DNA of 33,143 nucleotides from Elusimicrobiaceae bacterium. Lineage in GTDB: Bacteria > Elusimicrobiota > Elusimicrobia > Elusimicrobiales > Elusimicrobiaceae. This document shows, in pieces, positions 1 to 23,773 of this stretch. The notes beneath the pieces were generated by a model, which worked only from the letters and a program-made list of their open reading frames with translations, searched no databases and was not told where the DNA came from. The stretch spans positions 1-33,143 of the forward strand of contig JAEEIL010000038.1 in the NCBI GenBank assembly GCA_016281355.1, given 5' to 3'. Every line of letters begins with the position of its first letter. Within the stretch, counting starts at the first letter, position 1. The position numbers and the translations under genes are program-made.

Positions 1-205
1 CACACCACCGCTAGATATATATTGTGTACCACCGCTGGAAACGATATTGCTTGTTACAATACCACCATCGGCTACAACTTGACTACCGCCATCGGCAATT
101 ACCGTGTAATTAGCGCTTCCACCGGCATACACACTTTGAATACCACCGCTATGAAGCCAAGTACTGTCAGCCACACCGCCATTAAAAATATTTTGAGTAC
201 CGCCG
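1..205 (-). repeat. Higher-order repeat copy A within the adhesin
   Basis: This block encodes a run containing GGVADSTWLHSGG, QSVYAGGSAN and VADGGIVTSNIVSS. It matches the block 957 bp away (copy B) over more than 60 residues, much more closely than ordinary neighbouring repeats match each other. It is cut by the window edge. Confidence 0.65.
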
Positions 206-2278
206 TTGTTTATAGTTGTGCTAACAGCAGAGCCACCATTAGAAATATATTGTCCGCCGGCACTGTTTATCGTTGTACCAACAGCAATACCGCCATTGGA
301 AATCACTTGGCTTCCTACCCGATTAATTATTGTACCGCTTGCTTGAGCATTAGCAAGAATGTATTGATCCCCATGACTGCCTATGGTTGTATCAATACTG
401 AGACCTCCGGTTGAAACAACTTGACGTCCGCCATCACCTATCTGTGCAGAACTTGCCAAGCCACCGTTAGAAACTGTTTGGAAACCGGTCACACTTGTAG
501 CAAGCGCTACCCCCCCAGCAGAAATACGTTGAGCACCGTTGACATGAACGAAATCATTTATAGATGAACCGCCATCATATATAACTTGTGAAGCGTAATT
601 ACTAATATGTCCGGAAATGGATGAGCCCCCGCTGGATACATATTGAAAGCCGGAGGAATAAACATGAGCACCATTTGCAACCCCACCAGAAACATGTTGA
701 TACCCACGGGAACTAACTAAAGAAGAAATAGCCAATCCGCCGCTGGAAACTATCTGACTACCTCCACTATAAATATGGGTATAAATTGCAGAACCGCCGT
801 TAGAAATATGCTGTAATCCGCCATTACTTATAAAGGTCCACTTTGCCGAACCACCGCTGGATACATACTGTATCCCCCCATTACTTATAATCGTAGAAAT
901 AGCAATACCACTATACAATATATGCTGCTCAGCACCGGAATCTAAAATCGCCAAATAGGATGAGCCACCGCTTGATATATATTGCCCGGCTGAAGACACA
1001 ATATTATTAGTAACAATACCGCCGTCAGCAACTTCTTGCACCGCACCGTTTATAATAACCGTAGAGTTGGCACTTCCGCCGGAATACACACTTTGATAAG
1101 CACCACTTAAAAGCCATGTCCTGTCAGCCACACCACCGCTTAGAACAAATTGAGAACCGCCATTAAAAACGGAAGTGTGATTGGCACTACCTCCACTGGA
1201 AATTACTTGACTAGCACCACTACTTATAATCGCATAATTTGCAAGACCACCATTCAATATATTTTGTATGCTATCCTTATTAACTTTTGTATAGGAAGCA
1301 CGGCCGCCATTATATATATTTTGAATAGCACTAGTCAAACTCGCGCTGGTATCAGATCCTCCGGTATAAATATCTTGCTCGGCGTTAGTCAAGAACGTCA
1401 TATATGTACTTCCGTACACGTTTAAAGTAGCAGAACTATTCAGACCTCCGCTACTTACTTTACCACCTGAAAGCACGTTTACCGTGCCCCCTCCTATACC
1501 TCCTTGTATGACATTTCCGCCGCTATAAATATTTAGTGTCCCTTGTTTAGCAGAAAGAATTGTTGCCATACCGTATATATTAACAGTTCCACCCTCCCTT
1601 AAAAAAGTAGAATAGGTTGTAGCATAAGTATTTAATATACCCCCACTACTTATATGAGTACTGACAATAGTAGCCCCACTATCTGCCGTCATCGATCCGC
1701 CGTTAAAAATCATTGCAGTTGCTGCACTGCCGCCACTTCCGACAGACAAAACACCCCCGTCATATACAAACGTGCGCACAGCAGATCCTAAAACATATTG
1801 CGATCCGCCGCTGAGTAGGGTTCCCCCGCTGATAAGCCCCCCACCACCGGTGGCTAACCCACCGCTTGAAACGATTTGTTGTCCGCCACTCATCACCACT
1901 GTATCGCGAGCCACACCCCCGTTATAAATTACTTCCGTTCCTCCGGAGTTAATAACTGTGCTTTGCGTGCTACCATAGTTGTACAGATTACTAACCACGA
2001 CGTTGTATAAATCTGCCCCCACCGTTAAACCGGAAGAAGTTTCCCCGGCTTGAACCGTTAAATCAGCATAAGCGGGAAGGGTATTATTTAAGAGCATCGC
2101 TGTCATTGTAGCGGTATAAATTACTTTTTTACCTCCGTTAATAATGCGGGTTGGAAAACTAGCGGAGCAACGACTCAAACCCACTTCGCTTGTTACAGCA
2201 CTACGGCTATGACAGTAATATTCTTCCAAACTTTGAATATAACGACTTGTGTAGATATATTCATCTTTCTTACTCATT
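1..2278 (-). CDS. AIDA-type autotransporter adhesin, passenger domain (3' end outside window)
   Basis: An open frame of 759 codons begins at ATG 2278 and runs off the left edge without a stop. A GGGGA ribosome binding site precedes it. Residues 1-71 look like an extended signal peptide, with a long polar N-region, the hydrophobic stretch VIYTATMTAMLLNNTLPAYA, and probable cleavage after AYA. From about residue 105 the protein is a run of roughly 19-residue imperfect repeats of the pattern T-x-I-x-S/N-G-G-x-Q-x-V/I-S-S/N-G-G. This is the strand-loop-strand repeat of AIDA-I/TibA-type self-associating adhesins, which forms a beta-helix on the cell surface. The translocating beta-barrel would be beyond the window. 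The gene lies 26 nt after a TibC/AAH-like heptosyltransferase, so its repeat serines are probably glycosylated. The family call is firm; the target of adhesion is unknown. Confidence 0.88.
958..1162 (-). repeat. Higher-order repeat copy B within the adhesin
   Basis: Second copy of the block at 1-205, containing GGVADRTWLLSGA, QSVYSGGSAN and VADGGIVTNNIVSS. The offset of 957 bp (319 codons) keeps the frame and equals about 17 basic repeats. This suggests segmental duplication of a large repeat block. Confidence 0.65.
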
Positions 2279-2304
2279 GTTAGTTCCCCTTTATTCGCAA
2301 CATT

Positions 2305-3684
2305 TTATTTCTTTACATTTTCATTAATTTCTTTATTAGGTTCGATTAAATTATGATCTTTCATTAGTTGCTTTATATGCCCAATCACTTGCTTACCTGT
2401 TATCAGACGCGTGCATTCAAATTGTCTAGCTGTATTTTTAAACTTAGGACACCACAAAAAATCGTAATGGTCAAAGTTACAGTTAACATCATCCCAACAA
2501 CCATTGCAACCGTGAGAATTGAAAACACGATATGGTGTGTAAAATTCACATATCGGTAATGTGAAACCGCTTATAAGTACTATTGGAATATTAGTACACC
2601 AAGCCAACCACGTTAACCCCGAAGATAAACCGATAAAAAAGTCCGCGTGTTCCAGTAACGCAATTCTTTCCTGTAATGGTAAATTGCCGGTGAAATCTTC
2701 TACTCCTTGCGGCATACGATTCCATATAAACCCCTGTCCATACACAGGTTCTTTATCAATACATAAGACGCGATAACCCATATCTTTAAGATATTTTACA
2801 ACTTGCTCCCAACCATAACCGTTATTCCAAAATTTTGCTTGAGAACTTGATTTTGTTGCAATGCAAACATATCTTTCTTTAATTTTTCTTTCATTACCAA
2901 GGCGAACTTTGGGGGCCTCTTCACGTGGATCTACTCCTAATATATAACCCGCGGTTCTGTGTAAACCGACTTTACGAAAATCGATAGGTTGATGAGTGTC
3001 ATTACCCCTAAAAAACAAACCTAAATAATAACTTGCATAAGGTTTGTCGAATTTTGGTTTATCCATTGGCACAGCGGTAAAAAATAAATTAGGATATTGG
3101 GAAGCAAAAATTTCAACTAAATTTTTTGCCATTGTAAGTTCTGCTATGCAATTATGTTTCTTTTGAAATCTATCGGCATAAGGTAACCAGCCAATAATAT
3201 CCCCAAGTGTACCGACGGGGAATTTGATTTGTACTTCTTTGCCTGTAAGGTTCATTTCATGGTCTAAAATTGGATTTTGTTCGCCACGCACCCAAACACG
3301 AATTCTAAAAGGAATATAATATTTTTTATTACTTAATACCCAACCTTCGTCTGCATCACAAGCAAAAATTATATTATCACTTTCCGCATCTTCTATTTGA
3401 ACGTGCCAATGCCCTTTGGGTAAAAGCACACGTGCACCGTCGTTAAAGTCATAACGAATACCCATTGGACCTTCTTGTGTGGGGATAGCTGGAATTGGAA
3501 CAATAAATGGATTTTGAGGTTGTACGTTTTTTTGATTATTGATAGCCGCAGTAACATCTTGAACAGGTTGTGCAGCTGATTGATTCGCAAGCGTACCCAT
3601 TTGTGGCTGCTCATTATTGTTTACATTTTGTGATACTTGATTTTGATTTCCTTGATTTACTACTTGATTATTTTTTTCTTCCAT
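2305..3684 (-). CDS. Autotransporter strand-loop-strand O-heptosyltransferase (TibC/AAH-like)
   Basis: This 459-aa cytosolic protein resembles the bacterial autotransporter heptosyltransferases (TibC, AAH), which transfer heptose from ADP-heptose to serines in AIDA-type repeats. Visible family features are the segment GIRYDFNDGARVLLPKG (about 75-91), a GT-B C-terminal half with IGLSSGLTWLAW (351-362), and a cysteine cluster Cys393, Cys396, Cys412 and Cys424 that matches the iron-binding finger of TibC; Cys402 also falls inside it. The first ~65 residues are unusual: rich in Gln and Asn, low complexity and probably disordered, making the protein longer than E. coli TibC (about 400 aa). The start at 3684 has only a weak Shine-Dalgarno; an internal Met29 (3600) is no better. 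It is the upstream partner of the adhesin at 2278, as in aah-aidA and tibC-tibA. Confidence 0.88.
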   Translation of the reverse strand: MEEKNNQVVNQGNQNQVSQNVNNNEQPQMGTLANQSAAQPVQDVTAAINNQKNVQPQNPFIVPIPAIPTQEGPMGIRYDFNDGARVLLPKGHWHVQIEDAESDNIIFACDADEGWVLSNKKYYIPFRIRVWVRGEQNPILDHEMNLTGKEVQIKFPVGTLGDIIGWLPYADRFQKKHNCIAELTMAKNLVEIFASQYPNLFFTAVPMDKPKFDKPYASYYLGLFFRGNDTHQPIDFRKVGLHRTAGYILGVDPREEAPKVRLGNERKIKERYVCIATKSSSQAKFWNNGYGWEQVVKYLKDMGYRVLCIDKEPVYGQGFIWNRMPQGVEDFTGNLPLQERIALLEHADFFIGLSSGLTWLAWCTNIPIVLISGFTLPICEFYTPYRVFNSHGCNGCWDDVNCNFDHYDFLWCPKFKNTARQFECTRLITGKQVIGHIKQLMKDHNLIEPNKEINENVKK

Positions 3685-3978
3685 AATATTTTATCTTCGT
3701 AAAAAGTAATTTTATAATTCAAAAAACAAATTAATTTTAAGGTTAAACTGTAATTTAACTTAAAACTTTTACGTACCCTTATTAGAACTTTTAATTTCAT
3801 TATACCAAATTATATCCCAGTTTATGTCTACATTTTTTAATTTAATGTCATTATATGGATAATTAGTCGTAAATCTCTCTTTACTATATGTTTATAGACA
3901 TACTAAAACACTCTGTTTCTTGTATAATCCCAACAATTATGTTGGAATTGAAGTATAAGTTTATATCGGGAGGATATA
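3685..3978. other. AT-rich intergenic spacer without a gene
   Basis: Very AT-rich spacer between the adhesin-glycosylation operon and the methyltransferase remnant. Reading both strands I see only promoter-like elements: TGGTATAAT on the minus strand at 3799-3807 and TATAAT on the plus strand at 3923-3928. No open reading frame with protein-family features is present. Confidence 0.6.
3799..3807 (-). promoter_or_regulatory. Possible extended -10 promoter for the heptosyltransferase-adhesin operon
   Basis: On the minus strand this reads TGGTATAAT, a perfect -10 hexamer preceded by the TG of an extended -10. No convincing -35 lies 16-18 bp upstream; a TAGACA sits 20 bp away. Use of this site would give a leader of about 110 nt before ATG 3684. 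Confidence 0.4.
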
Positions 3979-4217
3979 ATTTCGAGAGAAGCATCTAAAA
4001 CCAAAGCGTATTTCGGATTATTAAAAAATAAAGCCTTTCTAGGAAAAGGAATTGATATAGGATGTGGGAATGACCCTATTTTGAGTGGCATCGATTGTTT
4101 TGATGTCAAAGATGGCGATGCTAATTAAATATGCAACTATGCACACAAACAATACGATTTCGTTTTTTCTTCACATTGTTTAGAGCAAGGGAGTTTTTAT
4201 CCAACAATAAATAAATT
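3979..4217 (+). pseudogene. Remnant of a SAM-dependent methyltransferase gene
   Basis: Frame 1 of the plus strand reads a clear class I methyltransferase N-terminus: SREASKTKAYFGLL, then GKGIDIGCGNDPI (4042-4080; the glycine-rich SAM loop), an acidic region FDVKDGDAN, an in-frame TAA stop at 4126-4128, and then, still in frame, ICNYAHKQYDFVFSSHCLEQ (to about 4188). The last motif matches the family's usual FDFV-SSHxLEH segment. A good ribosome site (GGGAGG, 3968-3973) lies just upstream, but the codon at the right distance is ATT (3979), where an ATG would be expected. The frame then runs into the 3' end of asnS on the other strand, so the rest is lost. Lost start, internal stop and truncation make this a decayed gene. 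The original substrate is unknown. Confidence 0.7.
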
Positions 4218-5510
4218 TTATGGTTTCAAGCGGTCCATCAAGCGCGGAAAAGGTATCGTTTCGCGTAAATGGTGCAAGCCGCACATCCAGGAAACAAACC
4301 TTTCAATACCCATCCCAAAACCACTGTGGGGAACAGAACCGTATTTCCTTAAATCAAGGTACCAATCAAAAGCTTCTACAGGCAAACCTTGTTCTTTGAT
4401 GCGGGCAACTAAAGTGTCATAATCTTCTTCGCGTTGACTGCCACCGATAATTTCCCCATAACCTTCGGGGCCTATCATATCAACTGCCAAAACAACGCGC
4501 GGGTCTTTAGGATCGCGTTTCATATAAAATGCTTTAATGGCCGTCGGGTAGCGGTGTATCATAACGGGGCGGTCAAAGTTTTCGGAAATTATTGTTTCTT
4601 CATCTCCTCCAATATCGCCCCCCCATTCAGTTGGGTTGCCTTTTTTATTTAAAATTTCAATTGCTTCAGTATAACTGATGCGCGGGAAAGGCTTTTTAAT
4701 ATTTTCAAGTTTTGAAATATCACGCCCAAGAACTTCAAGTTCTTTGCGGCGGTTCTTTAGAACTTGTTCAACTAAGTAGCAAACGAAATCTTCGGCGAGA
4801 TCCATGTTATCGTCTAAATCATTGAAGGCGACTTCGGGTTCTACCATCCAAAATTCTGTTAAATGGCGGCGGGTTTTAGATTTTTCCGCCCTAAATGTCG
4901 GACCAAAACAATAAATTTTACCAAGTGCCATTGCGCTTGCTTCGCCGTATAATTGGCCGCTTTGTGATAAAAAGGCTTTTTCACCAAAATAATCAGTTTC
5001 AAAAAGTGTTGAGGTACCTTCGCATGCAGCCGGTGTTAAAATCGGGGAATCAACCAAAGTAAAACCGTTTTTCCTAAAATATTCGCGAATAGCAAAAATA
5101 ACTTCATCCCTAATTTTTAAAATCGCAACTTGCCTGCTGGAACGCAACCATAAATGGCGGTTATCCATCAAAAACGCCGTACCGTGTTCTTTATTGGAAA
5201 TCGGGTAATCTTTTGCCATTTGCAAAAGTTTAATATCTTTTACACCAAGTTCAAAACCAAGCGGGGAACGTTTATCTTCCCTCACAGTTCCGGTAATTTC
5301 AACGGAACTTTCCTGAGCGAGTTTATCGCCTAGTTCAAAAACTTCCGGGGTAACATCGCCTTTAAAAACTACGCATTGAATGATTGCACTACCGTCACGT
5401 AACTGTAAAAAATGTAATTTACCGCTAGAGCGTTTATTATAGAGCCAACCTTTTAAAGTTATTTCTTTACCGACATGTTGGGCTACATCTGATATTCTGA
5501 TTTTTTGCAT
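4218..5510 (-). CDS. asnS: Asparagine--tRNA ligase (AsnRS)
   Basis: A 430-aa cytosolic class IIb aminoacyl-tRNA synthetase that charges tRNA-Asn with asparagine. The N-terminal OB-fold anticodon-binding domain (about 1-105) contains [29 protein letters not shown]. The catalytic core has motif 2 ([21 protein letters not shown]) and motif 3 ([15 protein letters not shown]) near the C-terminus, ending in IPFPR. The length is somewhat under the E. coli enzyme but typical of the family. Its presence beside GatB in the same window suggests that any GatCAB in this organism serves Gln-tRNA rather than Asn-tRNA, which is an inference. It stands alone on the minus strand, diverging from the lipoprotein operon at 5631; a TATAAT sits within its short upstream spacer. 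Confidence 0.96.
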
Positions 5511-5573
5511 AGGAACCTCATATACTATTTATTATATTATAACTTTTTTAAGGCTACTTGTGTTCAGCTTATC

Positions 5574-6122: not shown

Positions 6123-6716
6123 ATGAAGAAGTTAATTATCGCTTTACTCGTTTGCCCGCTTTTGCTTGCGTGCGGAACAAAAGTTAAGCGTATGGAAATT
6201 GAACAAACTAAAGATGTCAGCGGCAGTTGGAACGATACCGATTCCCGCGAAGTTGCTAAAACCATGATTGACGAATGCTTAAACGGTAACTGGTATGCCA
6301 AAGCCTTAAAAGAAAAGGGCGGTAATGAACCGGTTGTAATCGTAGGTACAGTCAAGAACGATTCCATGGAACATATAAATACTAACACTTTTATTGAAGA
6401 GCTTCAAAGAGCTTTAATAAACAGCGGTAAAGTGGAATTTGTGGCTTCTAAAAATGAAAGAGGTGAACTGCGCGAAGAACGCTTAGATCAAGATGAATAT
6501 TCCTCTGAAGCGACACGCAAAGCTTTTGGTAAAGAAGTCGGTGCTGATTATATGTTAAGCGGCGTATTAAGCGATATTAAAGATCAAGAAGGCAGCAAAA
6601 GTGTTGTGTTCTATCAAGTTAACTTAAAACTCATTAACATTGAAACAAACAGAATACTTTGGAACGGCCAGAAACAAATCAAAAAATACGTTAACAAAAA
6701 AGCATTTAAGTTATAA
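6123..6716 (+). CDS. lpoB: LpoB-family lipoprotein (penicillin-binding protein activator)
   Basis: A 197-aa lipoprotein with lipobox LLAC (Cys at residue 17). After a short linker it shows the LpoB-family start DVSGSWNDTDSREVAKTMIDECL, the strand PVVIVGTVKNDSMEHINTNTFIEELQRALINSG, and the C-terminal GADYMLSGVLSDI and RILWNGQKQIKKY. In E. coli, LpoB reaches from the outer membrane to activate the peptidoglycan synthase PBP1B. Homologues in other phyla keep the fold, but their partner is not proven, so the symbol reflects family membership. It has an AGGAGG ribosome site at good distance and begins a run of three lipoprotein genes with tight spacing. It is followed 3 nt later by the COG3014-type gene, a neighbourhood repeatedly seen for this family. 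Confidence 0.82.
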   Translation: MKKLIIALLVCPLLLACGTKVKRMEIEQTKDVSGSWNDTDSREVAKTMIDECLNGNWYAKALKEKGGNEPVVIVGTVKNDSMEHINTNTFIEELQRALINSGKVEFVASKNERGELREERLDQDEYSSEATRKAFGKEVGADYMLSGVLSDIKDQEGSKSVVFYQVNLKLINIETNRILWNGQKQIKKYVNKKAFKL

Positions 6717-17739: not shown

Positions 17740-19479
17740 TTATTCATTTGCTAAAGTAACGGAAAGAACTTCTTCCACCGTAGTAATACCCGTTACAGCT
17801 TTTCTCCAACCGCTCGCACGTAAATTCCAAGCCCCTGTACTTTGAGCAGCCTTTTTAAGTTCAATTAAATCTTTAGTCTGATAAATAGTGTTACGCATGT
17901 TTTCGTTAATTTTAAATACTTCATAAATTGCTTTTCTGCCCATATATCCTGTACCGGAACATTTCGGGCAACCTGACGCTTTGAAGAAAGTCCAAGTCGG
18001 CCTATCTTTAGAAGGTAAACCTGATTCCCTTAAAACCTGATCTATAGTACTTGGCCCCGGTACATACGGTACTTTACAATAAGGACATAATACCCTAACC
18101 AAACGCTGGGCAGCCACCAATGCAAGCGAACTGGCAAGTAAGAACGGTTCTATACCCATATCAATCAAACGGGGTACTGCACCGATGGCCTCATTTGTGT
18201 GCAAAGTGGAAAACACCAAGTGACCGGTCAAGGCTGCCTTTAAACAAGCCTCTGCAGTTTCAGAGTCCCTGACTTCACCGACCAGTATTACATCCGGGTC
18301 TTGACGCAAGAAAGAACGCAAACCAGCAGCAAAAGTTAAACCTATTTGAGGTTTAACTTGCACCTGGCTAATACCGGAGAGTTTATATTCTACCGGGTCT
18401 TCCAAAGTCATAAAATTAAATTCTGTACTTTTTATTGATGTTAAAACTGCGTTTAATGTAGTAGTTTTACCGGAACCTGTAGGACCGGTTAAGAAAATCA
18501 AACCGTGGGGTAAAGCAGCTGCTTCCAAGAAATCTTTTTTCTGTCTAGGTTCAAAACCTAATTTATCAATATTCAATTCACTGCTACCCTTATCCAAAAT
18601 ACGAATAACTAACTTTTCGCCGAAAACCGTAGGACATACTGAAACACGGAATTCTACTGTTCTATTTTGGAATTTTACTGCGAAACTTCCGTCTTGCGGT
18701 AAACGTTTTTCCGCGATATCAAGTTTTGATAAAATTTTTATACGGGAAATGATGGCCCCAACGTCTTCTTTTGCCGGGGAAGTTCTTTCATACAAAGAAC
18801 CGTCAATCCTAAAACGCAAACTGACCCTTTCATCAAACAGTTCCAAGTGAATATCAGACACCCTTTCAGTTAACGCTTGACGTAAAATAGCGTTAACCAT
18901 TTTAACATAATGGGCACCTGCACCGGAAAATTCCCTATCTAAGTCAATTTTTGCACCCGGGGCAGAAAGTTCATCTAAACTTTCGCCATCGGATACTTCT
19001 GTTTCTTCTTTAGCCTCGGAAATAACTTCCGCGAGTAAATCTTTTTTAGAGTAAAATGCATCGAGTGCTTGAAATAATTGTGACTTGCTTGCTATAAACG
19101 GTTGTATTTCAAGGCCACTCATCATGCGTAAATTGTCCAACAAAAATACGTTGGAAGGATCGTTCAAAGCAACTGCTAAAGTTCCGTCTTCCACGAATAA
19201 TGGTAATACGACATTTTCGCGGGCATACTTCTCCGGAACATACTTAGCTAGATTTTGATCTTTTTCAGGTATCAAAATGCCATTTTGCTTACTGGCATAA
19301 GGTACTGAAAGTTGTTTAGACATTGCTTGGATAAGTTCTTCTTCTTTGACGATGTCCAAAGCGACCAAGGCTTCGTTTAAAGAAACTTCGTTTTGTTTTG
19401 CATGCAGTTCGGCTTTATTTAAACCTTCCTTAGTTAACTTACCGCTTTCTATAAGAATATCTATCAACTGTTTTGCCAT
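17740..19479 (-). CDS. pilB: Type IV pilus / type II secretion assembly ATPase PilB/GspE
   Basis: A 579-aa hexameric ATPase of the GspE/PilB family that powers pilus or pseudopilus extension. The N-terminal MshEN-like domain (about 1-150: LIDILIESGKLTKEGLNKAELHAK, YVPEKYARENVVLPLFVEDGTLAVALNDP) is followed by ALTERVSDIHLE, the Walker A GPTGSGKTT (near residue 330), the Asp box and FMTLEDPVEY, Walker B DPDVILVGEVRDSETAE and the His box ALTGHLVFSTLHTN. The C-terminal zinc site is a CPYC...CPKC pair followed by GTGYMGRKAIYEV. All motifs of an extension ATPase are present. No PilT retraction ATPase is present in the window. Confidence 0.95.
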   Translation of the reverse strand: MAKQLIDILIESGKLTKEGLNKAELHAKQNEVSLNEALVALDIVKEEELIQAMSKQLSVPYASKQNGILIPEKDQNLAKYVPEKYARENVVLPLFVEDGTLAVALNDPSNVFLLDNLRMMSGLEIQPFIASKSQLFQALDAFYSKKDLLAEVISEAKEETEVSDGESLDELSAPGAKIDLDREFSGAGAHYVKMVNAILRQALTERVSDIHLELFDERVSLRFRIDGSLYERTSPAKEDVGAIISRIKILSKLDIAEKRLPQDGSFAVKFQNRTVEFRVSVCPTVFGEKLVIRILDKGSSELNIDKLGFEPRQKKDFLEAAALPHGLIFLTGPTGSGKTTTLNAVLTSIKSTEFNFMTLEDPVEYKLSGISQVQVKPQIGLTFAAGLRSFLRQDPDVILVGEVRDSETAEACLKAALTGHLVFSTLHTNEAIGAVPRLIDMGIEPFLLASSLALVAAQRLVRVLCPYCKVPYVPGPSTIDQVLRESGLPSKDRPTWTFFKASGCPKCSGTGYMGRKAIYEVFKINENMRNTIYQTKDLIELKKAAQSTGAWNLRASGWRKAVTGITTVEEVLSVTLANE

Positions 19480-19507
19480 TTTAACGATCCTTCCAATTTA
19501 AAACTGA

Positions 19508-21073
19508 TTATTCAGACAACACCGTAGGAGTTATGAAAATAACCAAGTCTGTTGTGCTCTTAGTTTTCTGTTTAGAGGTAAATAACCAACCAAGTATTGG
19601 TATTTGACCGAGTAAAGGCACTTTATAAACTGTTTCTTTTTCCGTAGATTGCAACAGACCGCCGAGAACAACTGTTTGACCGCTCTTAACGCGAACTTGT
19701 GTTGTAACGGCACGGGTAACAGTATCATAAGTATCACCCATTTCTGATGCGACAAGATCAGAATAAGAAGGAAGTACGGTTAAAGTAACATAACCTTCTT
19801 TATTTACTTGAGGTGTTACAGTTAAAGTTAAACCGACTCTCTTTCTTTCAGTACCACTGGTACTGCTTTCTGAACTTTCATTTGTTTTAGTTATTTTGCC
19901 GATTGAAGCATCCCTAGAAGATGTAACCATTGCTTGGTTATTATTCATTGTAATAACTTTAGGTTTACCTAAAGAACGGGCTTCTTGGTTTTGCATCATA
20001 GCTTGGAAAACCAAAAATACATTATCGCTATCGCCCCATGAAAGTTCCGGAGCTGTAGCATTATCAGGATCAGCAGCTCTTACACCAAAATATCTTAATA
20101 CTTTATTACCTTCTCTGGCACCAAAGTATTTCCACGGCATTTCCGTTTTACCGCCGGTTAAAGTACCTTGTATATTCCAGTGAAAACCAACATCATAACC
20201 GCTACCTTTTGAAACTTCAATTACTTGTGCTTCAATTAAAATTTGCGGTGCTTTGATATCAAGTTCATCTAAAATGCTTTCAATTTGTGGGAAAACTTCC
20301 GGAACATCTGTAATAATCATTTTGTTAGTTCTGGAATCAACAGCAATTCTCCCTTGTTTTGTAAGCACACTTTGAATAACTGCCAAAATAGCACTGCTTC
20401 CGTCACCGGAAATGGTTTGTTGGGAAGAATTATTTAATGAGAACCCAGGGCCGCCTACACCACCGCTGGAAGAACTGTCAAACACATTGAAAGAAGTACT
20501 ACCGCCATTACTAAAACTGCTGCTTGACACATCAGTAGGCATGACGGAATTTAAATCTGTCGATATAGATGTATTAGGTTGCAAAGACACATAATTTAAA
20601 GTATAAACTTTTGTTATGGTATTAGGAGCTTCCTCAGAACGATTCGTAATAACGTAAGAATCACTCTTACCAACTCTTTGATAAGTCAACCCTTGTACTC
20701 TTAAAAGAGTATCTAACGCTTCACGGACAGTAACATTTGTTAAAGAGGCAGAAATTTTCTTGCCTGAAAATTCTTCCCCCATAATAAAGTTAATCCTTGA
20801 TTGAGCGGAAATACTGTTTAAGAAAGTACCTATAGGAACATTGTTTACCCTGATAGTTACTTTTCTGTCTAACGGAGAGACTGCATCTGCCCGCTTATAT
20901 AAGGAAGGTTCTGTCCCTTGGCTTATTCTGCCATTGGATTCTTCCCCGTAATCATCTACTACGTCTACCTTCGGGCCTGATGTAGTTTTCGTTCCTTGTG
21001 CCAAGGCAACTTGAGAACACAATTGAAACGAAGCAAACACCAGTACCAAAGTGAGTGCTATACTTTTTTTCAT
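19508..21073 (-). CDS. pilQ: Outer-membrane secretin (PilQ/GspD family)
   Basis: A 521-aa secretin with a Sec signal peptide (about 1-25). Domain order: an STN-like N-domain (about 68-150: VTIRVNNVPIGTFLNSISAQSRINFIMGEEF), an N1/NolW-like domain interrupted by a Ser/Gly-rich insert (about 175-220), then RIAVDSRTNKMIITDVPEVFPQIESILDELDIKAPQILIEAQVIEV, and the C-terminal secretin pore ending VRVKSGQTVVLGGLLQSTEKETVYKVPLLGQIPILGWLFTSKQKTKSTTDLVIFITPTVL. This is the usual secretin signature. It forms the channel for the pilus or secreted cargo. No AMIN domains are seen, so it is shorter than proteobacterial PilQ. It follows the PilP-like gene, as in pilMNOPQ. Confidence 0.93.
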   Translation of the reverse strand: MKKSIALTLVLVFASFQLCSQVALAQGTKTTSGPKVDVVDDYGEESNGRISQGTEPSLYKRADAVSPLDRKVTIRVNNVPIGTFLNSISAQSRINFIMGEEFSGKKISASLTNVTVREALDTLLRVQGLTYQRVGKSDSYVITNRSEEAPNTITKVYTLNYVSLQPNTSISTDLNSVMPTDVSSSSFSNGGSTSFNVFDSSSSGGVGGPGFSLNNSSQQTISGDGSSAILAVIQSVLTKQGRIAVDSRTNKMIITDVPEVFPQIESILDELDIKAPQILIEAQVIEVSKGSGYDVGFHWNIQGTLTGGKTEMPWKYFGAREGNKVLRYFGVRAADPDNATAPELSWGDSDNVFLVFQAMMQNQEARSLGKPKVITMNNNQAMVTSSRDASIGKITKTNESSESSTSGTERKRVGLTLTVTPQVNKEGYVTLTVLPSYSDLVASEMGDTYDTVTRAVTTQVRVKSGQTVVLGGLLQSTEKETVYKVPLLGQIPILGWLFTSKQKTKSTTDLVIFITPTVLSE

Positions 21074-21104
21074 TACTTCCTCCTAATTTTTAAACTACAA
21101 ATCT

Positions 21105-21602
21105 TTACAACAAAGGCAATTTTCGTTGAAACCTTTGCCCTTTATATGTAAACCAAACGGAATCATCCGTAATGGATACAACTTTCGCTCCTAAAACTTT
21201 AGAGCCAATATTAACTACTTCACCGTTAACAATAGCTTCTTTACCTAAAATACCGTCAACGCGAATCTTATACATAATAGCACGGGCCGGGTAACGCCTT
21301 ATTTCATCTTCAAGAATTTTTTGCCTCATTAAACGCTCTCTTTCCAATTCCGCCTGACGTCTGCGTTCCGCCTCTTCTTCAGCCAATCTGCGTTGTTCGG
21401 CTTTTTTAGCTTGGTCTATTTTAATAACTTCTTCTTTAGATAAAAATGGGTTTCTTTTACCGGGATTAAAAGAAACTTTTTTAGCCCCTGCCGCACTTTT
21501 AAAGCCTGCATTTGCCTTGTCATTCTTTATATTTTGGGCATTAACAATAGCCCCAAAACATAAACTCAAGACTATAAAGGTATATATAAGTTTATTTTTC
21601 AT
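21105..21602 (-). CDS. PilP-like periplasmic protein
   Basis: A 165-aa protein with a signal peptide (about 1-22) or N-terminal anchor, a motif FNPGKRNPFLSKEE (about 46-58) that resembles the RDPF region of PilP, a highly charged, Arg/Glu-rich helix (about 66-100, AEQRRLAEEEAERRRQAELERERLMRQ), and a C-terminal small beta domain (about 105-165: MYKIRVDGILGKEAIVNGEVVNIGSKVLGAKVVSITDDSVWFTYKGQRFQRKLPLL). The beta domain has the shape of PilP/GspC homology-region domains, which contact the secretin. Its position between the PilO-like gene and the secretin supports the same assignment. It has a GGAGG site and overlaps the PilO-like gene's stop. Confidence 0.78.
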   Translation of the reverse strand: MKNKLIYTFIVLSLCFGAIVNAQNIKNDKANAGFKSAAGAKKVSFNPGKRNPFLSKEEVIKIDQAKKAEQRRLAEEEAERRRQAELERERLMRQKILEDEIRRYPARAIMYKIRVDGILGKEAIVNGEVVNIGSKVLGAKVVSITDDSVWFTYKGQRFQRKLPLL

Positions 21603-22191
21603 TCTTGCCTCCTACAAAAGTAGGAAAATCTTTATCCTGTATAAAAACGGTATTGGTATTAAAAGTGACATTTAATTTTTCCGTTGTTTCCCCTTGTTTA
21701 CGGCTTATTCTTAAATCAGATACGCGCATAAAAGTAGGGCTGTTTTCTATTGTTTCCATAAGACGCCCTAATTGGTCAAAAGTAATATCCCCCTTAACAG
21801 GAATAGTCGATATCGTAAATACACCATCGGAATTTTGGATTTCATTGCCTTTAGACCAAGAATCTTTCGGTAAACCGACTTTTTCCATTATGGAGATAAG
21901 TTCCGTCTGGTGCCAAAAAGATTTCTGCGTATTAGGTGGCAATTCCTCCGTTAATTTTTTATACTTGGCTTTACTCTTTAAATAATCTTCCCTGTTTTCC
22001 ACTTCCACTGCCTGAGCCTCCGCCTTCTTTTTCATTCCTATTATTTGATCGGATGTACCTTTATATAAGGACCAAGCAACAATAACAACTACCAATAACA
22101 CTACAAACGGCCTTAAAAAAGGTTTAAAATTCCTATCTTTTATCATCGTGGAGGCATCAGTCATGCCTGTTTTAATATCTTCTATTTTCAT
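21592..22191 (-). CDS. PilO/GspM-like inner-membrane assembly protein
   Basis: A 199-aa bitopic protein: a cytosolic N-terminus, one transmembrane helix (about 28-46, FLRPFVVLLVVVIVAWSLY), a helical coiled region (about 50-95) and a ferredoxin-like periplasmic domain (DGVFTISTIPVKGDITFDQLGRLMETIENSPTFMRVSDLRIS), as expected for PilO. I chose ATG 22191 (MKIEDIKTG), one base after the stop of the PilM-PilN gene, instead of the GTG at 22206 inside that gene, which has no ribosome site. PilN and PilO form heterodimers that link the cytosolic ring to PilP and the secretin. Confidence 0.8.
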   Translation of the reverse strand: MKIEDIKTGMTDASTMIKDRNFKPFLRPFVVLLVVVIVAWSLYKGTSDQIIGMKKKAEAQAVEVENREDYLKSKAKYKKLTEELPPNTQKSFWHQTELISIMEKVGLPKDSWSKGNEIQNSDGVFTISTIPVKGDITFDQLGRLMETIENSPTFMRVSDLRISRKQGETTEKLNVTFNTNTVFIQDKDFPTFVGGKNEK

Positions 22192-22192
22192 T

Positions 22193-23773
22193 TTACTTAT
22201 TCCCACACTTTACAATAAATTTTGTACCTAAAACAAAGGCCTCGCCTCTGTTTTTTATCGCACTATCGGTATTATAAGTTATATTTGCTGTATTTTTACA
22301 TAAATCGGCGAAATCCAAGTCAGAAGATAAATTAGATTTGAATTTATCACCCAAAACCAATTCCTCTTTATTACCGGAAATACTGCTGGCCACGCCTTCT
22401 ATTGCCAAAGTGGCATTGCTTTTTTTGATATCAAAATTATAAGGATAATCTATAACTACCCCTGAAAGCCAAATATCTTCAGGCAAAGTCCTCGGCAACG
22501 CGGAAAGTTTTTTAGTAAAGTACGGATCAACTAATAAATTTTCCAATTTCTTAGTATTACTTTTCAAATTCGCAACCCTTGCTTTAATTTGGTCTGCATA
22601 CAATCCCTGAAAATCCGTCACCTCTTTCTGATCTTTTTTACTAGCCTTTAATTGAACCGTAGTAATAACAGATGATATTTGCATGAATAAAATATAAAGT
22701 ATTATTAACACGGAAACAGCACCTGCAATCAGCCAAGCAAACATTGTGGCACCGATTTCTTCATCGCTGGAACGGTTACTCTTATAAAAGTCTATATCAG
22801 GTACTTTTTTATTAACAAATTTGAGACAGGCACCTAAAACAGCCATTTCCGAAAAACCTTCCACTTTAAAACCGAAAACCTCGCTTATTTTGCTTGTTCT
22901 AACGTGTTGTTTGACTTCCCCTTCAACTATGTATACCCAAAAGTCCCCATCATCGGAAACTATAGCAACATCTTCAAAAGGATTCCTTTCAAGTTGTTTG
23001 GAAATAAAATCCATACAATTTGTAATTTCCAAACGGTTTCTTGCCCCCAAGGCTTTTTGAACTTCAACTTCCCTAGACATCAAAGGAACTTCGTTTAATG
23101 CAAACAGAAATTGCCCGTGGTTAGAAGTAAAATTTGCATATATAATACCTTTTTGCTCAGAGTTATCTTTATCTACTTGTGTTAAAAGACGATAGGTAGA
23201 TATAGCGGAACATTCCACAGAAACCAAGTTAAGCCCTATTTTTTTCATGCCGGATTCTAACGCAGAAATTATTTTGGCTGAAGTCATGCAAAAAACTACG
23301 CCGAGTTTCTGGGTTTTGCTTAAAGGTGCATTGAAAGGATAAACATAAAAGTCATATACACCCTTTTCAAAAGGATAATGTATATACTTTCTTGCCTGCA
23401 GGGGTATTGTTTGTTTCCAATAAGCGCGGGCTATATTTTGAATTACGAAATGCCTGTGAATACAAAAAGCAGGATCCAGAGAAATAACAACATTTTTCGT
23501 ATTAAAATCTCTATTTTCTAAAATTTTTTGTATAGGATCAAGCCAATGTTTTGTTGTAGCAAAAAAACCTTCATTTAATTCTGCAGGTTTTAAGTTTTCC
23601 TGTGGAACATCACTGATAGGTAATTTTATCAGCGAATTAACCTCCATCCCGCCTGCAACGGTAGTAACTTGCGCGACATAAACATCAGTCAAGGAAATAT
23701 GTATACCTATACATTCCACGTAATCAGAACGCTTTATGCCAGAAAATTTGTCAAAAATATTAGCTATGTCCAT
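22193..23773 (-). CDS. PilM-PilN fusion (GspL-like) assembly protein
   Basis: A 526-aa protein that joins two functions usually on separate proteins. Residues 1-325 look like the actin-fold PilM/GspL cytosolic domain (YVECIGIHISLTDVYVAQV; VVISLDPAFCIHRHFVI; YANFTSNHGQFLFAL; MAVLGACLKF). A short linker (PDIDFYKSN) leads to one transmembrane helix (343-366) and a periplasmic PilN-like part with a coiled coil (about 370-420) and a C-terminal fold. GspL has the same cytosolic-TM-periplasmic plan. The actin-like fold binds the cytosolic tail of PilN in the separate-protein system, so fusion fixes the stoichiometry. It follows the exported OmpA/FlgD-like gene and precedes the PilO-like gene by one base. 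The domain call is from pattern only. Confidence 0.78.
   Translation of the reverse strand: MDIANIFDKFSGIKRSDYVECIGIHISLTDVYVAQVTTVAGGMEVNSLIKLPISDVPQENLKPAELNEGFFATTKHWLDPIQKILENRDFNTKNVVISLDPAFCIHRHFVIQNIARAYWKQTIPLQARKYIHYPFEKGVYDFYVYPFNAPLSKTQKLGVVFCMTSAKIISALESGMKKIGLNLVSVECSAISTYRLLTQVDKDNSEQKGIIYANFTSNHGQFLFALNEVPLMSREVEVQKALGARNRLEITNCMDFISKQLERNPFEDVAIVSDDGDFWVYIVEGEVKQHVRTSKISEVFGFKVEGFSEMAVLGACLKFVNKKVPDIDFYKSNRSSDEEIGATMFAWLIAGAVSVLIILYILFMQISSVITTVQLKASKKDQKEVTDFQGLYADQIKARVANLKSNTKKLENLLVDPYFTKKLSALPRTLPEDIWLSGVVIDYPYNFDIKKSNATLAIEGVASSISGNKEELVLGDKFKSNLSSDLDFADLCKNTANITYNTDSAIKNRGEAFVLGTKFIVKCGNK

Follow-up and report, generated by a model that had tools for sequence, protein, structure and literature searches.

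A predicted heptosyltransferase-adhesin pair of Elusimicrobiaceae with a family-specific leader and chain ends that continue beyond the barrel

Enzymes of the BAHT family bind ferric iron, assemble as dodecamers and transfer heptose to serine. The closest described systems are the E. coli pairs TibC-TibA and AAH-AIDA-I. The Elusimicrobiaceae locus analysed here has in common with both pairs the enzyme family, the gene order, the iron-finger and catalytic residues, the 19-residue repeats and probably the barrel, but it departs from them in an N-terminal extension of the enzyme, in a leader that is not an ESPR and in a tail that follows the barrel. The ESPR of type V proteins slows export, aids periplasmic transit and is dispensable for glycosylation, according to the relevant passages of a review (PMC8151025). 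Trimeric autotransporters can carry periplasmic extensions at the C-terminus, and AtaA is held to peptidoglycan in trans by TpgA (both from passages of PMC13082670). Some type Ve proteins have an extra periplasmic domain, which other autotransporter types lack according to a 2019 review (PMC6555100).

Our window is a stretch of 33,143 nucleotides that makes up the whole of contig C46, in a genome of 1,506,521 bases in 46 contigs. A preliminary description of this DNA had proposed a TibC/AAH-like enzyme encoded directly ahead of an AIDA-type repeat protein on an Elusimicrobiota chromosome. The chromosome is indeed from Elusimicrobiota, and the observation is confirmed with corrections; the interpretation built on it is partly supported. 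Both genes lie on the minus strand, the enzyme first (2305..3684, a single frame of 459 aa) and the adhesin 27 bp downstream (1..2277). On inspection, the gap between them (2278..2304) carries a ribosome-site-like AAAGGGG ahead of the adhesin ATG, an arrangement that fits a two-gene unit read as a single operon. Base 1 is the edge of the contig and cuts the adhesin gene, leaving the N-terminal 759 aa of a frame that is open there, and a barrel therefore cannot be visible in the window.

In a profile search, the enzyme matches TIGR04414 (hepto_Aah_TibC) at 588.2 bits, against a cut-off of 200, and the Pfam model of the TibC N-terminal domain (TibC_1st) at 112.7 bits. Homology over the catalytic and iron-finger regions, which had been named beforehand as the point that could overturn the identification, was found: phmmer aligns residues 57-442 with TibC (4rb4/4rap) at ~1e-173, and identity is ~60%. 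Asp162 (codon 3199..3201) corresponds to the TibC catalytic base Asp110, as read from this alignment and a passage of PMC4358343, and Lys284, Arg340 and Trp359 align with the sugar-binding residues Lys230, Arg286 and Trp305. The iron-finger cysteines reported earlier are likewise in place, with Cys393, Cys396, Cys412 and Cys424 (within 2413..2508) corresponding to TibC Cys339, Cys342, Cys358 and Cys370 at the same spacing. All of these residues are identical in the 14 rows of our enzyme alignment, A1. The sole key residue altered is the sugar-binding Thr226 of TibC, which is replaced by Ser280, a conservative change seen in 14/14 rows.

A position linked to donor choice groups the enzyme with AAH instead of TibC. 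In TibC, Pro300 makes the enzyme select ADP-D,D-heptose, whereas AAH accepts both isomers, as set out in the relevant passage of Yao et al. (2014; PMC4358343). The corresponding residue here is Ser354, as in AAH, and we therefore predict relaxed use of both ADP-heptose isomers. Ser354 is present in 13 of the 14 A1 rows, and glycine takes this position in five other Elusimicrobiaceae enzymes that were not included in A1.

An AF2 model of the enzyme (mean pLDDT 72.7) matches TibC (4rap) with a TM score of 0.88 on target length, followed by the folds of WaaF and WaaC. Residues 1-59 (3508..3684) form an N/Q-rich extension that is unalignable to TibC and predicted to be unordered (pLDDT <50), consistent with the earlier remark that the N-terminus is unlike that of TibC. 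Residues 397-410 of the iron finger also have pLDDT <50, so the model is no test of the iron site. The protein is thus predicted from its sequence to be a full BAHT-family O-heptosyltransferase. It is a new but otherwise unremarkable member of this wide family, from a phylum that the pertinent passages of the family paper (PMC4358343) do not name.

The adhesin part encoded in the window matches TIGR04415 at 317.9 bits and Pfam AIDA at 122.6 bits. Its strand-loop-strand repeats (4..1968, minus strand) are the probable heptose acceptors. The part beyond the leader has 51 GG turns, most commonly spaced by 8, 11 or 19 residues, and 31 of them have Ser at -1 or -2, which bears out the serines previously noted at these turns. 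The same description had called for an autotransporter barrel in the repeat protein. A barrel was found (PF03797, 86.3 bits), but it lies on another contig, C14 (16556-17290, minus strand), and its assignment to the window adhesin depends on an inferred join. Contig C14 has 18,848 bases and terminates in a minus-strand frame of 951 aa, open at the contig edge (15992-18847, outside the window), that contains repeats, an autochaperone match, the barrel and then a 164-residue tail; it is probably the remainder of the window adhesin. The barrel is the only PF03797 match in the genome. It was missed by hmmscan in the whole 951-aa frame and in a 621-aa piece but scored 84.1 bits with a 452-aa piece, and we take the misses as filter effects.

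The simplest reading of the C46 and C14 parts is that they would belong to one gene split by the assembly. The genome has one leader, one PF03797 barrel and one BAHT, and the repeat at the C14 edge is 87% identical in DNA to the copy at the window edge versus 73% to the inner copy in the window. These are the observations that make a single split gene the simplest reading, and the two frames also reach their contig edges unclosed and with matching orientation. If C46 and C14 instead carried two separate adhesin genes, or one broken copy, a single enzyme would act on adhesins in trans, as the three adhesins and one BAHT of the relative G086 might suggest. An exact overlap of the contig ends was sought and none was found, which also leans toward separate genes; set against the single leader, barrel and BAHT, the likeness of the edge repeats and the matching sense of the open frames, we consider this alternative unlikely. 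The join would have gained support from a relative's contig bearing asnS, BAHT, adhesin and rplT together, but none was found among the relative loci examined, where rplT and infC were unmatched. Base composition discriminates poorly, with a GC content of 0.364 for C46 and 0.381 for C14 and a tetranucleotide correlation of 0.942, versus 0.956 for the locus of another species.

To describe the C-termini of the family, we examined 12 ends, of which ten belong to complete frames at named loci and the other two to C14 and G086. Each of those ten complete frames carries repeats and barrel on one chain. All 12 ends have a PF03797 barrel, and in all 12 the chain runs 12 to 229 residues beyond it. The 164-residue tail on C14 is Lys-rich (39 Lys/Arg versus 8 Asp/Glu), and with it the C14 protein, like the other 11, departs from the type Va rule that the chain ends at the last barrel strand. 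OmpA (PF00691) is present in three tails (L055 and two in L058, at 61 to 65 bits) and was sought but not found in the other nine, while the tails of L059, L061, L062 and L068 close in a common motif, D-[YF]-[ST]-x-M-x-x-[IL]-E-x-x-W. The 12 tails are very dissimilar among themselves, and the shortest has only 12 residues. By comparison, the last residue is aromatic in 25 of 42 other repeat frames encoded near BAHT, and in 2 the chain goes one residue past an aromatic; the other 15 comprise uninterpretable frames and proteins of Lentisphaerae type in which no barrel is visible.

Modelled with AF2 (mean pLDDT 75.6), the end of the L055 protein shows a barrel joined by a low-confidence linker to a distinct C-terminal domain. 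Its barrel matches BrkA, EspP and AIDA-I; for its end, the matches are solved OmpA-type domains (1.5e-19 and weaker). The OmpA ends of the three relatives' adhesins should bind peptidoglycan, and we propose that post-barrel ends may anchor the adhesin to the cell wall. As with Acinetobacter AtaA-TpgA and with the periplasmic domain of type Ve proteins, a periplasmic part would then link an outer-membrane adhesin to peptidoglycan. In those systems, however, that part is a separate protein or an N-terminal domain, whereas in three relatives here OmpA is fused after a type Va barrel, and the genome of the window has a Lys-rich tail in place of OmpA. We found no report in the open-licence literature of OmpA fused after the barrel of a type Va autotransporter, and the post-barrel extensions appear to be a new feature of Elusimicrobiaceae adhesins. 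The OmpA-barrel fusion raises the testable question of a classical autotransporter tied to peptidoglycan by its own chain.

At its other end, the adhesin begins with an extended leader of ~71 aa up to a likely signal-peptidase site (2065..2277, minus strand; the site is inferred). Like the ESPR (PF13018), this is a long N-terminal extension ahead of the signal segment of a large autotransporter, but the Elusimicrobiaceae leader does not match the ESPR model. The window and L061 leaders had no Pfam match at E 5 and the L055 and L070 leaders had no ESPR match, while an Oxalobacter control leader matched ESPR at 8.7e-12; with all four unmatched at E 5, we rejected an ESPR assignment. An alignment of 21 leaders (A2) has nine invariant columns. 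Searched against 90 Elusimicrobiaceae genomes, the A2 profile matches 28 places in 21 genomes, and the leader was not found in the other 69. Of these matches, 21 are the rows used to build the profile and 7 are new, six on repeat frames and one on a 135-aa edge fragment that cannot be judged. In G088, G089 and G091, where BAHT was not found, it is chiefly the second part of the leader that matched.

This conserved, long, non-ESPR leader appears to be a new adhesin feature of Elusimicrobiaceae, and by analogy we propose that it delays export as the ESPR does. The leader and the post-barrel tails, both missed by the preliminary description, are the only unusual parts of the system: the adhesin family is new in its leader and periplasmic ends, and the cytosolic heptosylation system itself is known.

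The view of the pair as enterobacterial only was overstated. Our scan of named genomes confirmed 533 BAHT loci across many phyla, 80 of which were kept, and the loci include Elusimicrobiaceae, Endomicrobium, Desulfovibrio, Oxalobacter, Lentisphaerae, Planctomycetota, Verrucomicrobia, Selenomonas and Enterobacteriaceae. BAHT scores above the cut-off in 24 of 340 Elusimicrobiota genomes, comprising 18 of the 90 Elusimicrobiaceae genomes, 3 from a second family in the same order and 3 from family f21. An important caveat is that the named loci L055-L069 come largely from the same genomes as our G-numbered set (the frames are identical), so the two sets are not independent.

Enzyme and repeats are closely coupled. 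TIGR04415 repeats occur in 18/18 Elusimicrobiaceae genomes with BAHT, and 67 of the 90 genomes have neither. Repeats were found without BAHT in G064, G088, G089 and G091; in G084, repeats are absent and BAHT is present as a 177.6-bit fragment at the edge of a contig. Fisher's test on the 90 genomes gives p 3.5e-14, a value that is too small because the species are related. A repeat frame lies directly downstream of BAHT in 18/18 Elusimicrobiaceae loci, closing after 325 aa in G060.

A quick tree was built from 64 rows, namely the window, 56 of the 80 kept loci and 7 G-numbered rows. The window's enzyme groups with all 17 named Elusimicrobiota rows in a set supported at SH-aLRT 99, separately from the enterobacterial ones; G119 is placed with Lentisphaerota, and the branch of L047 is very long. 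On this quick tree, most Elusimicrobiota BAHT copies appear to form one clade.

Comparison of window positions 2346-5549 with G086:C2 (L140), from the same genus, gives 91% DNA identity for the asnS beside the locus and 76% for BAHT. The G086 adhesins that match the window leader are encoded at two other loci, not at G086:C2. The enzyme-adhesin pair seems to be exchanged or fast-diverging.

A recent acquisition of the pair from gut enterobacteria, as a passenger without a settled role, would account for its patchy presence (18/90) and for the lower identity of the enzyme than of asnS to G086. We hold this to be very improbable, given family-specific leaders and tails and the separation of the window and the 17 named Elusimicrobiota rows from enterobacteria, even though the tree is a quick one and places G119 elsewhere. 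A recent transfer from E. coli is not favoured by the same tree. In Elusimicrobiota, the predicted O-heptosylation appears long established in species from rumen and gut, which would extend a protein modification studied in E. coli pathogens to a barely cultured gut phylum. We found no report of BAHT in Elusimicrobiota in the open-licence literature; one paper that mentions both the phylum and autotransporters names other outer-membrane families in its relevant passages.

The donor sugar can be traced in the same genome. Profile searches found a heptose kinase domain (379.2 bits, C38), a heptose adenylyltransferase domain (187.0 bits, C39) and a heptose epimerase (309.3 bits, C45), all above cut-off, and a GmhA-like protein on C16 just below it (200.1 bits, cut-off 209.45). 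One further GT9 protein is encoded on C32, so heptose is probably also used for lipopolysaccharide, from a pool probably common to both pathways. The idea that the enzyme is itself a lipopolysaccharide heptosyltransferase merely adjoining an adhesin has next to no probability and was rejected on profile scores, since its weak matches to GT9 and LPS models reach 19 to 24 bits, far below their cut-offs, versus 588 bits for TIGR04414, and since the iron finger, the coupling of BAHT to repeats across genomes and the other GT9 protein on C32 all oppose it, with the ranking of WaaF and WaaC as next folds after TibC on its side.

Taken together, these observations support an explanation that we regard as highly probable as a whole: a two-gene unit, heptosylation, leader-guided export, barrel display and a periplasmic end. 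The cytosolic BAHT enzyme would move heptose from ADP-heptose onto Ser in the turns of the passenger repeats. The decorated adhesin would leave via Sec under its long family-specific leader, and its own C-terminal barrel would display it. The chain would then run on beyond the barrel into the periplasm, with an OmpA end in three relatives' proteins and a Lys-rich tail in the window's genome, and these periplasmic ends would steady the adhesin against pull. The explanation draws on the TIGR04414 score, the key residues, the TibC fold match, the downstream repeat frames and BAHT-repeat co-occurrence (each 18/18), the ADP-heptose genes, a leader confined to repeat adhesins and the barrel plus tail in 12/12 ends, with OmpA in 3. 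Heptosylation of the adhesin by the enzyme is, on this evidence, very likely. More tentatively, and with the balance tilting against it, Elusimicrobiaceae might have their own type Va branch, in which a dedicated leader holds the chain until it is heptosylated and a post-barrel end (OmpA, basic tail or motif tail) fastens it to the wall in cis.

BAHT loci of Lentisphaerae show other partners. At L119, L125, L126, L131 and L132, the adjacent repeat proteins are without an autotransporter barrel in Pfam, and the partners include RTX calcium repeats (L119), a C10 peptidase (L131, L132), CARDB (L125, L132) and FG-GAP (L131). The BAHT enzymes of these loci may act on adhesins that are secreted by a different route.

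Several further features were seen around the two adhesin contigs. Between the enzyme gene and asnS, the plus strand at 3980-4130 has, by eye, a methyltransferase-like start and an early stop, and is probably a gene remnant. Positions 6123-6716 of the plus strand, near asnS, encode an LpoB-like penicillin-binding protein activator. The minus strand at 17740-23773 holds a cluster resembling those for type IV pili or type II secretion, with a PilB/GspE-like ATPase, a PilQ/GspD-like secretin and a PilM-like protein. On C14 (L054, G000:C14; 6964-14760, minus strand), three large proteins of 773, 669 and 1070 aa resemble type IV pilins at the N-terminus (GFTLFEVL) and then continue into long Cys-rich regions.
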